Origin: Nitrospirota bacterium
GTDB lineage: Bacteria > Nitrospirota_A > Leptospirillia > Leptospirillales > Leptospirillaceae
Assembly (NCBI GenBank): GCA_021844645.1
Contig: JAKBTA010000019.1
Location: forward strand, 1 to 19,723
Direction: 5' to 3'
Length of the DNA stretch: 19,723 nucleotides
The notes under the pieces were generated by a model that saw nothing but the letters and a program-made list of their open reading frames with translations, made no database searches and was not told where the DNA came from. Below are positions 15,971 through 19,414 of the stretch, piece after piece. Within the stretch, counting starts at the first letter, position 1, and every line of letters begins with the position of its first letter. The position numbers and the translations under genes are program-made.

Positions 15971-17068
15971 CTAATAAGGAGTTGCGTGGTATCCCATTTT
16001 TCTTAGAAGCCAACCATAAAAAAACGTTGTATAAAAAACATACCGTTGTCCCTCGAAAGAGGCATCCTGTCCATATGGACTTTGGTAGGCAAGACTCAGC
16101 TGATACCAGTCCGCCTGATAATTCATCTCGTAGGAGAGGTACCCCTCTGTCCTTCCGTAGTATCCATTATTGGAGAGATTGATCAGTGTTCTCGACTCGA
16201 CCGCCGGAGTGAGATGGGCCAGAAAAGCAGGCACATTGACGCCGATGATATCGTGAAGGTACAGGAGGCTGTACTCGATCGCCCCGTCAAAACGGATCGA
16301 ATCCCCGAAGTCATATGTTCCCATGAAGTCCGACAGGGCCATGGGACCATTTCCGAAGGGAACAATTCCTGCCATGTCGGTCTGAAACGCAAACGGACGA
16401 ATCCATGAAACAGGAACATCGCCAAGCCCCTTGTTGAAGACAAGATAAGAGTAGAGCGTAAAAGGGTTACCCTGCCCAACCGGAGTTCCTCCGACAGGAA
16501 CAATGCCTCTCATGATGAATGTCGTGAATATTTCATGGGGATCATTTTCGTACATCAGGTACTTTCCCTGAATTCCGGCATACTGGAAACCTGAATAGGT
16601 ATGGTTCGGCGTCCAGAGATCGATATAGTGGGTATCAAGACGCAAGCTGAAGTGGTGGGTCATGCGTTTTTCCAACATGACCGGCGTTGTGAACGCACTG
16701 CTTTTTCCCGGCATTCCACCGTAGGTGGGCATTAGAGTCAACTGGTTGTCGATATCCCCGTCCTTGACAATCAGAGGCTCAATAAAAATTCGGTTTCCAG
16801 CATGGGCAATTCCGCTTGAAAGCATGTTTGTCGTCGTTGTCACAGGAACCGATGGCACAACACCCGGATGATCGCTCATGCCACCGGAAACGGGATCTGA
16901 TGCATTCGCTGCCAGAGATCCGTATCCCCACGGGATTTCAAGACCGGGAAATGGAATGGGCACTCCGGAGATATCCAAAGCACTGTCTGCATAGGCAGGA
17001 AAAATCCCCACAACAAGAAAAAGCAAAAGAACAGGGCAAGAAACGTTAAGACGGAAGAAAAAAGACAT
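15971..17068 (-). CDS. outer-membrane porin/transporter-like protein
   Basis: 365 residues, family not firmly recognised. Seen: signal peptide (hydrophobic core PVLLLFLVVGIFP, cleavage near AYA-D at about 27), a Pro/Ser/Thr-rich stretch to about residue 80, then many alternating amphipathic strands with aromatic ends (FSLRLDTHYIDLW, GIQGKYLMYE, FTTFIMRGIVPVGG, YVFYTTFFYGWLL). This pattern resembles barrel transport proteins such as the MetA-pathway/phenol-degradation type, but no diagnostic motif was found. GGAGAGAG lies just upstream of the ATG. It is a monocistronic unit with a near-consensus promoter 78-106 nt upstream and a terminator directly after, so it is probably well expressed and separately regulated from czcCBA. 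Confidence 0.75.
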   Translation of the reverse strand: MSFFFRLNVSCPVLLLFLVVGIFPAYADSALDISGVPIPFPGLEIPWGYGSLAANASDPVSGGMSDHPGVVPSVPVTTTTNMLSSGIAHAGNRIFIEPLIVKDGDIDNQLTLMPTYGGMPGKSSAFTTPVMLEKRMTHHFSLRLDTHYIDLWTPNHTYSGFQYAGIQGKYLMYENDPHEIFTTFIMRGIVPVGGTPVGQGNPFTLYSYLVFNKGLGDVPVSWIRPFAFQTDMAGIVPFGNGPMALSDFMGTYDFGDSIRFDGAIEYSLLYLHDIIGVNVPAFLAHLTPAVESRTLINLSNNGYYGRTEGYLSYEMNYQADWYQLSLAYQSPYGQDASFEGQRYVFYTTFFYGWLLRKMGYHATPY

Positions 17069-17121
17069 GCTCTCTCCGGATACTCAGGGAAATTCATCCA
17101 TTTTTCAGGGGGGACCAAAAT

Positions 17122-17136
17122 TGATACGTAGTATCA
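17122..17136. promoter_or_regulatory. palindromic operator candidate at transcription start
   Basis: TGATAC and GTATCA flank GTA (6-bp arms, 3-nt spacer). It begins about 10 nt downstream of the -10 box, so it overlaps the expected +1 to +17 region of the outer-membrane protein transcript. A repressor bound here would block initiation or early elongation. Confidence 0.45.
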
Positions 17137-17145
17137 TGTTTCAGG

Positions 17146-17174
17146 ATATTAGCCCGGAATGCTCTATCTGTCAA
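17146..17174 (-). promoter_or_regulatory. strong sigma70-type promoter of the outer-membrane protein gene
   Basis: On the minus strand TTGACA (17174-17169) is followed after exactly 17 nt by TAATAT (17151-17146). The -35 is perfect and the -10 has four of six consensus positions. Predicted start near 17139, leader about 70 nt. Confidence 0.8.
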
Positions 17175-17257
17175 CAAAGACTCCCTCCGACGAACCACAA
17201 AAGAGACAATTCCAAGGATGGAGAGTCTAATATAGCATTGGTGAAGCTCTTTCGTGA

Positions 17258-17750
17258 GAGAAAATCGGATACAGGAAACCCCGGTTCGACAATCGGACCA
17301 GACCGGAAGGGTGGCTGGCTCCGTCCCTCCAGCACCGGGTCGATACGACCATGGCCTGGGTGAATCGATTCCGGAAGCCTCCCCGGTTTCTGACATCAGT
17401 CAGGAACTGGTTCGATTCGATCTGCAACAGATACTCGATTCCTTCGGTTTTCCGAGAGGGTTCCTCACCAGAACGAAAGACCACTTCGGGTTTGTCACCT
17501 GAGACCTGGTGAGGGCGGTCGTCACAAACGGCAAGAAGATCGGGGCTTACCTTGGCAGGGTCGCAGTCCGGTCCTCCGGAAGCTTCAATATCCAGGAACC
17601 GGAGCGGTCGTTCAGGGTATTTCTCACAAAGTCTGCCGATGTCGGAAGCGGGGAGACGGACACGGGTATGCGGTCGAAACCATTAAACGAAAGGAAAGCG
17701 CACTCTTTCCCGGCGTTAACGCCGAGGTTTCCGGTGCGCGCAGAGGATGA
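17258..17750 (+). pseudogene. iscB: decayed iscB (OMEGA nuclease, Cas9 ancestor family), HNH and RuvC-III deleted
   Basis: IscB signatures appear in order but in three frames. Frame 2 (17258-17377): KIGYRKPRFDNRTRPEGWL and APSLQHRVDTTMAWVNRFRK. A one-base loss at 17378-17382 moves to frame 1: SPVSDISQELVRFDLQQ (RuvC-II Glu present), then directly DSFGFPRGF...HFGFVT, TGA at 17500-17502 where family members have T-G-D, then DLVRAVVTNGKKIGAYLGR and VAVRSSGSFNIQ. Another shift after 17595 moves to frame 3: TGAVVQGISHKVC...RGDGHGYAV. Between FDLQQ and FGFPRG the whole HNH domain and RuvC-III (HWLDA) are missing, as is the N-terminus with PLMP and RuvC-I. IscB proteins are RNA-guided nucleases carried by IS200/IS605-like elements. 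Cannot be functional. Confidence 0.88.
17711..17724. repeat. 14-bp perfect palindrome in the iscB 3' end
   Basis: CGGCGTTAACGCCG lies between the last recognisable IscB motif and its stop. Its position suits the subterminal right-end hairpin of an IS605-like element, so the element probably ended shortly after it, near 17750. Confidence 0.5.
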
Positions 17751-17834
17751 AGAAGATTGCAAAAAAGCTGATGGAGATGTGCAGGATTACCGTTTCCAGG
17801 GAGATTGATCAGACGGAGCCGGAAGAAAAAGCCA

Positions 17835-17930
17835 TCAATGAGAGCGTTTTTTATAAATAGCAAAGCCGGAGAAAACAAAAGCTCCCGCCACAAGCCATGA
17901 AGCTAAAGATTCATTGGGCGTCAGAACCAT
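17835..17930 (-). CDS. 31-residue single-TM protein downstream of fic
   Basis: ATG at 17930 is preceded by GGAGGG (complement of 17938-17943) with ideal 7-nt spacing, and lies 17 nt after the fic stop, so translation could be coupled to fic. The product begins MVLTPNESLASWLV, has one hydrophobic helix (WLVAGAFVFSGFAIY, about 12-26) and ends KKRSH, a positive-inside orientation with N-out. No family is recognised. It could be a genuine small membrane protein in a fic operon, possibly an accessory or antitoxin-like factor, or the C-terminal membrane tail of a broken gene. It overlaps a weaker 37-codon plus-strand frame at 17747-17860. Evidence is the ribosome site, spacing and TM pattern only. 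Confidence 0.5.
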   Translation of the reverse strand: MVLTPNESLASWLVAGAFVFSGFAIYKKRSH

Positions 17931-17947
17931 TGTCGTTCCCTCCTATG

Positions 17948-19414
17948 TTAAAAGGTTATGGAGACGACATTCTCCAAGCTAGAGACCTCTTCATCCGAAA
18001 GCATCGGAAAAAACTTTTTTCGCTTGACAACACTCAAAACACCATTATTTTGACGGCATACATCAATAAACAGGTCAATCTTGCTGTCAGGCATATCGAC
18101 AATCGCCTGGATCTCTTTTTTGGCCTTTTCGTATCGGAGCAGAAAATCAAGCTCGGCAGGAATGTCAACATTGATCGTCTCTTCGATCACCTTGAACAGA
18201 TATTCGGACATCGCTGTCGCATCGAAATATTTGTAGATGAAATCCGTATCGTTCTTTTTCGTCAGGATTCCTTCGGAATCGATCTCATACCGACTGATCT
18301 CCATAACCTTTCTCGAAAAGGATTCAAGGCACCTGTCATAGTCGTCCATGTTGTTGAGAATATGGGCCGATACAGGGAATATGGCATCGTCCGGGGTAAA
18401 GTTTCCTTTGGCAAGAATGTCATGGATAAGAAATCGATGAATTCTGCCGTTACCGTCATCGAACGGATGGATGAAAACAAATCCGAAGGAAAGACAGGCG
18501 GCCCGAATGACGGGGTGAACCTCCTGGCGGGTTCTTGTCATCGTGGCAATCAGTCCATCCATCATTCCCCCAACCGAATCGGGAGAGGGCGATATATAAT
18601 GAACGATCTCCGTCCCGTTTCCGATGCGCTCCCCGACATAATTCTGATCCGTCCGGTAGTCCTTTGAAGAGAACCGGGGATCGACAATCATGTTCTGAAT
18701 CCGGATAAAGTCCTCCTTCGTCATGCCGGGAAAAGCGTTTCTCCGATGGAGGAGCTGAACGAATCGCTGGATCCTGTCTCCCTTCGGCTCCTCCCTTTCG
18801 ATCATGAATGAGGACTTCGTTTCCTTGAGATAAAGATACTGATTGGCCCTCAATATCACGCTCAAAGGATAGGAAGACAACAGATCCTTCACTTTTTTAT
18901 CAAGGTTTTTGTCGATAAATTCCATAAGAACGGGTGTTTTTCTGACTATCGGACAGAATTCCGGAGTTCCGATAAGGTTGTTGTTGACCCGCCATTTCTG
19001 GCTCTTATCCGGAGGAGCCGTGAAATATTCGGAGGGATCAAGAAGATCGATGTAATTTCCTGTCGTCATTTTGGGAACATCCAGATCATTCCCAATCAGA
19101 AATTCATAGTAGAATCCAATTTTTCGTTCGTATTTTCCAAGTGACTCGTTTAAACGCTTCTCAAGCGTCTTCCTGTCGATGACTCGCAAGGTTCGATCGA
19201 TGATCGAAAGATCGATGCTCTCATGTTTCAGGGCGAAGCACAAGTGAGAGATCGGATCGTCAGAAACCTGATATTCCTTTCGAAAGGTTCTTATCCGATC
19301 CTTCGGATAAGATTCCGAATTATCCGGCTCTCCAATCATGGAAATCTGCGCCGGAGAAGGCACATCAAGATCGAGATTTTTAATAAGCCATTGATATCCG
19401 ATCAGGGTTGCCAT
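17948..19414 (-). CDS. Fic-domain protein (probable AMPylase) with N-terminal inhibitory-type motif
   Basis: 488 residues. Seen: the Fic active site HPFDDGNGRIHR (316-327) with catalytic His316, a flap segment YISPSPDSVGGMMDGL (273-288), and upstream SFMIER (202-207), fitting the (S/T)xxxE part of the class II inhibitory motif, with Arg where Gly/Asn is usual. The C-terminus (about 440-488, DSKIDLFIDVCRQNNGVLSVV then KRKKFF) looks like a winged helix. Fic enzymes transfer AMP or other groups from nucleotides to protein hydroxyls; the glutamate blocks productive ATP binding. Target unknown. ATG 19414 has GGAG 5 nt upstream. A 31-codon small frame follows. Repeats cover its promoter, so autoregulation through the winged helix is possible. 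Confidence 0.92.
   Translation of the reverse strand: MATLIGYQWLIKNLDLDVPSPAQISMIGEPDNSESYPKDRIRTFRKEYQVSDDPISHLCFALKHESIDLSIIDRTLRVIDRKTLEKRLNESLGKYERKIGFYYEFLIGNDLDVPKMTTGNYIDLLDPSEYFTAPPDKSQKWRVNNNLIGTPEFCPIVRKTPVLMEFIDKNLDKKVKDLLSSYPLSVILRANQYLYLKETKSSFMIEREEPKGDRIQRFVQLLHRRNAFPGMTKEDFIRIQNMIVDPRFSSKDYRTDQNYVGERIGNGTEIVHYISPSPDSVGGMMDGLIATMTRTRQEVHPVIRAACLSFGFVFIHPFDDGNGRIHRFLIHDILAKGNFTPDDAIFPVSAHILNNMDDYDRCLESFSRKVMEISRYEIDSEGILTKKNDTDFIYKYFDATAMSEYLFKVIEETINVDIPAELDFLLRYEKAKKEIQAIVDMPDSKIDLFIDVCRQNNGVLSVVKRKKFFPMLSDEEVSSLENVVSITF

Follow-up and report, generated by a model that had tools for sequence, protein, structure and literature searches.

IscB is an RNA-guided DNA cutter and the presumed ancestor of Cas9. 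Insertion of HEARO RNAs in front of ATGA or GTGA is on record. The IscB proteins (NCBIfam NF040563) are OMEGA nucleases linked to IS200/IS605 elements, and IsrB is an HNH-less OMEGA nickase which, in the available excerpts of PMC9581776, keeps a RuvC domain with bridge helix and, in the case of DtIsrB, has an NTGA TAM preference. The locus described here lies in a stretch of 19,723 nucleotides (hereafter the window; contig JAKBTA010000019.1) from a Nitrospirota bacterium, and consists of two iscB blocks at 17265–17750 on the forward strand. It shares its block order and type of right-end hairpin with the IscB of a same-genus genome (L003, at G001:C16; intact, 459 residues) and with that of a 'Nitrospirae bacterium' MAG (L027, JAJYYA010000041.1); the right end of L027 lies on ATGA, as that of the remnant does, and the right end of L003 on TTGA. 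In contrast to these relatives, the remnant has no start, PLMP, RuvC-I, bridge helix, HNH, RuvC-III or omegaRNA, and it carries one internal TGA and two frameshifts.

The first-pass annotation, made from the letters of the DNA, had described a fossil iscB with IscB blocks readable in order across several frames. Indeed, a tblastn comparison of the window with the L003 IscB returned four pieces, all on the forward strand and in order: YRKPRFDNR..HRVDTTMAWVNRFRK at 17270–17377 (77.8% over 36 aa), SPVSDISQELVRFDLQQI at 17380–17433 (88.9% over 18 aa), LDSFGFPRGF..FNIQ at 17434–17595 (81.5% over 54 aa) and TGAVVQGISHK..ARRG at 17598–17747 (68% over 50 aa). In L003 numbering, the remnant covers residues 121–175 and 355–459. 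Block 1a (17265–17377, residues 121–156) is the RKPRFDNR linker after the bridge helix and forms the 5' edge of the remnant, block 1b (17380–17433) corresponds to residues 158–175, block 2a (17434–17595) to residues 355–408 of the C-terminal domain, and block 2b (17598–17750) to residues 410–459 with the natural stop TGA at 17748–17750. The top segment scored 94.4 bits; among 500 mononucleotide shuffles of 17258–17751, 238 gave any match, with a maximum of 24.3 bits. The frame 2 translation of the first piece matched Pfam RRXRR (1.3e-14) and the NCBIfam IscB model NF040563 (4.8e-15), the frame-1 piece matched the same models weakly (0.17 and 0.19, respectively), and both C-terminal pieces had no family match in Pfam or NCBIfam. 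At the DNA level (blastn), identity to L003 was 86% over 17271–17432 and 82% over 17434–17755, and identity to L027 was 84% over the first block from 17265 and 82% over the second; the matches of the nearest relatives split at the same junction (433/435 in the numbering of that comparison). The remnant had been placed from 17258 onwards, but recognisable homology begins at 17265 (DNA) or 17270 (protein). Sequence homology over the retained parts thus assigns the remnant to IscB, and the other hallmarks of the family, namely PLMP/RuvC-I/bridge helix, HNH, RuvC-III, omegaRNA and an open reading frame, were not found in it.

Residues 176–354 are absent as one 537-bp (179-codon) deletion, in frame, with its junction at 17433/17434 in both the DNA and the protein alignment. 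The deleted block contains HNH (residues 207–250, as placed by Pfam in the L003 IscB) and the RuvC-III motif THSLDAACVG (residues 318–327), so these two are missing as one block at FDLQQ/DSFGFP, exactly as had been read from the letters. Residues 1–120 are absent as well, and with them PLMP, RuvC-I (IKIDPGS, 55–61) and the arginine-rich bridge helix (112–121), the last residue of which alone falls outside the missing part. The positions of PLMP, the three RuvC motifs and the bridge helix were assigned from their motifs, on the basis of general knowledge and the excerpts of PMC9581776. Since L003 and L027 have all of these N-terminal parts (the RRXRR model was matched nearly whole), their absence from the remnant is to be read as derived by loss. 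RuvC-II (QELVRFDLQQ, within 17380–17433) and the C-terminal domain were kept. The description of a nuclease core that had been cut out is therefore right for HNH and RuvC-III and incomplete otherwise, as RuvC-I, the bridge helix and the omegaRNA were also lost and RuvC-II and the C-terminal domain remained. A check for a short direct repeat as the cause of the deletion had been suggested; we rejected a repeat-mediated event, since the two junction sides share 0–1 bp in seven relatives in which the region is retained (L003, L027, L063, L028, L040, L031 and L006, not all of them intact elsewhere).

The reading frame is broken at three places. The TGA expected at 17500 is present at 17500–17502 inside block 2a, at a position that is a sense codon in seven aligned relatives. 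The two anticipated frameshifts are 1-bp losses: one at 17378–17379, where there is an alignment gap and the tblastn segments skip one residue with two bases between them, and one at 17596–17597, seen in the alignment and by tblastn. Searches with Rfam found no HEARO omegaRNA (RF02033) in the window at the gathering score and none in 16800–18000 at E values up to 5, where two chance snoRNA matches were the only hits; an omegaRNA remnant upstream of the fossil was accordingly rejected.

The substitution pattern is one of relaxed constraint. Parsimony counts over 478 sites in three sequences gave 13, 9 and 15 private changes at codon positions 1, 2 and 3 in the fossil, and 13, 9 and 48 in the intact L003 and L027 together (6+7, 7+2 and 19+29). 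The ratio of positions 1 and 2 to position 3 was 22:15 in the fossil versus 22:48 in the intact branches (Fisher p=0.007). The change at 17440, counted among the 22 at positions 1 and 2 in the fossil, is not shared by a second assembly (G000) and is thus a recent polymorphism. Since the preference for third codon positions is gone from its private changes, we regard the remnant, on this comparison of sequences, as a pseudogene under relaxed constraint. In the second assembly the fossil recurs with an identical junction, TGA, frameshifts and ATGA; this assembly differs from the window by 1 base within 17265–17750, 3 bases within 17100–17900 and 4 in 3801 bases. Since a slightly differing assembly shares all the lesions, they are not read errors of a single one.

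We conclude with a probability of about 95% that the remnant is what a now dead OMEGA (IscB/HEARO) element left behind; its decay is ordinary, and the element is of a known kind. To judge from the relatives, an intact element comprising left end, omegaRNA, iscB and right-end hairpin would once have inserted directly 5' of the ATGA at 17747–17750. It would later have lost the left end, the omegaRNA and the first 120 iscB codons, a separate 537-bp deletion would have taken HNH and RuvC-III, and the nonsense change and the two 1-bp losses would also have arisen; the once-intact state and the order of the losses are our reconstruction. As the omegaRNA, start, RuvC-I, bridge helix, HNH and RuvC-III are missing, the locus encodes no nuclease: it yields neither a working protein nor a guide RNA and now only marks a former insertion. 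Without a left end, the Y1 transposase of IS200/IS605 elements has nothing to excise. The left end needed for movement is absent at the fossil and the right-end hairpin is thus without its partner, so the fossil should not be mobilisable despite the Y1 transposases elsewhere in the genome.

Some points weigh against the dead-relic reading. The 537-bp deletion is in frame, which has a chance of 1 in 3 and would fit a shortened protein that survived for a time; no empty site of the insertion was found among the family genomes; and the codon-position counts come from three sequences, with one of the 22 changes being polymorphic. Nuclease-dead relatives of TnpB act as binders or repressors, and the deletion of exactly 179 codons, together with the conserved sequence of RuvC-II and the C-terminal domain, could likewise have given a short nuclease-dead IscB, a binder or repressor with RuvC-II and a TAM-reading C-terminal domain, which decayed later. 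However, RuvC-III completes the RuvC fold and the product would probably not fold without it; the locus has no start, PLMP, RuvC-I, bridge helix or omegaRNA, the codon pattern is relaxed, and no second copy with this deletion was noticed among the iscB matches of 41 genomes, in a search not aimed at such forms. We consider this course of events very unlikely.

Descent from a natural HNH-less IsrB, which the first-pass annotation had already set aside on account of the additional loss of RuvC-III, would explain the missing HNH, and the NTGA TAM of DtIsrB matches the border motif of the remnant (PMC9581776). Yet IsrB combines the lack of HNH with a complete RuvC I–III and bridge helix, whereas the remnant is without RuvC-I, bridge helix and the RuvC-III motif; moreover, its close relatives are HNH-bearing, and the closest at the DNA level (L003, 82–86% identity) is a full IscB with HNH (Pfam HNH 2e-14; NCBIfam IscB 465.6 bits). 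We hold this origin to be extremely improbable. An assembly artefact that fused two iscB pieces might be suspected, as the other iscB pieces of this genome lie at contig ends, but two assemblies that differ by single bases have an identical junction and identical lesions, and decay flanks the junction (one frameshift precedes it, the TGA and the other frameshift follow it), which makes such a fusion highly improbable. The dead relic of an OMEGA element remains our reading in what follows.

IscB was found above the cut-off in 7 of 41 genomes searched, all seven among the 21 genomes of the same family; G001, with its intact iscB, was the one same-genus genome among them. The suggested look for intact copies and their guide RNA in relatives gave full-length iscB genes with HEARO upstream. 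HEARO scored above the gathering threshold at 11 of the 16 loci scanned, two pairs of which are the same place under two ids (L005/L031 and L002/L103), and was below it or absent at L001, L004, L008, L010 and L040, where L001 and L010 belong to the window's own contig. The genome G008 had the most IscB matches of the 41 genomes and the most HEARO matches of 22 genomes searched (14). Y1 transposase matches numbered 13 in G000 and none in G008, the assembly of which may miss Y1.

The left end plus iscB DNA of L003 had six matches in G000, two of which are the fossil. Another, C82:32901-33230, contains an omegaRNA (HEARO, 102.3 bits) and the first iscB codons, reaches the contig end at 33251 and carries an early TGA of its own; it is the only left-end match and has the only HEARO in this genome. 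The end of C51 and the start of C88 lie within the same iscB 3' end and share a stretch of exactly 127 identical bases, which at its far end runs slightly past the element, and different host genes then follow. C15 has a 29-base scrap resembling the right end. A 127-mer shared by two contig ends would be the trace of a k=127 assembler at a repeat, and for this reason the genome, with a completeness of 80.54%, probably has unassembled iscB copies. A second, intact iscB was found in this assembly neither by the IscB search nor by the search with L003 DNA.

At the window start (1–387) lies the C-terminal part of a TnpB (Pfam Cas12f1-like_TNB, 5.4e-26), cut by the window border; together with the intact iscB of the same genus and the probable unassembled copies of this genome, this bears out the earlier view that the lineage carried IscB as well as TnpB. 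A Fic/DOC-family protein (Pfam 3.6e-15) is encoded on the reverse strand at 17948–19414. In the search of 21 family genomes, G015 and G016 were the only others with a good match to its DNA, so this gene beside the fossil is probably mobile or patchy. Counting the window's own genome, 14 of the 21 family genomes matched the left flank of the fossil and 5 matched the right flank; in the others, the left match never reached past 17081 and the right one never began before 17970. Because the flanks are not adjacent in any other family genome, no empty site of the fossil's own insertion was found among the 21.

The last iscB codons form the right-end hairpin of the transposon, with the palindromic core GGCGTTAACGCC at 17710–17727, and comparable hairpins are present in the right ends of the family. 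Similarity between copies ends at or near GG/ATGA. The border of the fossil shows a hairpin and a fixed target motif of the IS200/IS605 type. The ATGA at 17747–17750 contains the iscB stop, is the probable target/TAM and also provides a start codon; that it was the insertion site of the fossil is what we infer from the relatives. From this ATG runs an ORF of 37 codons (17747–17860, MKKIAKKL...), possibly a small or shortened target gene, for which neither a counterpart in the other 20 genomes of the family nor a Pfam family was found. One empty site could be compared to the base: in the occupied G003 (L007), the element sits directly before an ATGA that pre-exists in the homologous empty site of G007 (L163), where it starts a host gene (MMKATTWNVNSLKVR...) which we take to be exonuclease-III-like.

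Right-end matches numbered 67, in 13 of the 21 family genomes, one of them being the fossil. We analysed 59 of the other 66, omitting seven short or partial ones, and also included the C82 stretch, where a right end is lacking. NTGA ends 56 of the 60 right-end sequences (the 59 and the window), 55 times as ATGA and once as TTGA; the exceptions are L255, L270, L273 and L276, of which L276 matches poorly. Removal of one too-short flank and of near-duplicates left 53 distinct flanks, the fossil's included, in which start codons were judged by ORF length alone. The border NTG opened an ORF of at least 100 codons in 32 flanks, a number that rose to 35 with a minimum of 75 codons and to 38 with a minimum of 50. 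Control NTGA sites in the same flanks gave 170/712 (24%), 255/800 and 384/877 at these three thresholds, and the +2 frame at the junction gave 13, 19 and 24 of the 53. The excess over controls, clear for ORFs of 100 codons, is reduced at 50, and 15 of the 53 flanks, among them that of the fossil, have no ORF of at least 50 codons. The stop of the family's iscB is thus supplied by the target, and this target often has the look of a host start codon.

Translation can be coupled through ATGA overlaps, according to the available part of PMC6728339. With slightly better than even odds, we propose that in this family iscB has no stop of its own and the element lands before an NTGA, the NTG of which opens a long ORF in about six of ten cases, so that one ATGA would both end iscB and start the host gene. 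Stop-start coupling would keep the host gene translated, and if so, the insertion would be nearly harmless. The fossil would be a worn-out case, the target of which would be, or would have shrunk to, the 37-codon ORF.

Three mini-elements in G008 consist of a left end, a HEARO above the cut-off and a right end, with no iscB: C4:18517-18964 (reverse strand), C59:65646-66093 (forward) and C73:103476-103908 (forward). All end on ATGA and are followed by ORFs of 3, at least 353 and 156 codons, respectively, the one of 156 codons being presumably AccB-like. Outside the family, a full ORF was found by an ORF filter at 35 of 73 iscB loci; 11 of these 35 end on ATGA, TTGA or GTGA and most on other stops, and of the 10 NTGA-ending iscB genes with enough sequence only 3 have a downstream ORF of at least 75 codons. 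Judging by these counts, the borrowed stop codon would at best characterise certain clades rather than IscB as a whole. At four loci from Sulfobacillus, Streptosporangium and a Bacillota MAG (L037, L055, L074 and L080), iscB ends on ATGA or TTGA and ORFs of 52 to 458 codons follow. We claim no novelty for the NTGA/start-codon pattern, since HEARO insertion before ATGA or GTGA has been described. Among the matches listed, no paper linked an NTGA TAM with ATGA translation coupling, and the available part of PMC9755519 contains nothing on start codons.

Taken alone, the fossil adds another decayed copy to those of a common mobile nuclease gene and alters nothing. Its right end pointed to a pattern that may matter, namely that the OMEGA elements of this family often lie on start codons and borrow their stop from the target. 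If true, this would be a simple reason why OMEGA elements pile up, as with the 14 HEARO matches in G008, without gene breakage. The borrowed stop and the landing on start codons are of more interest than the fossil itself, and a specialist might follow them up.
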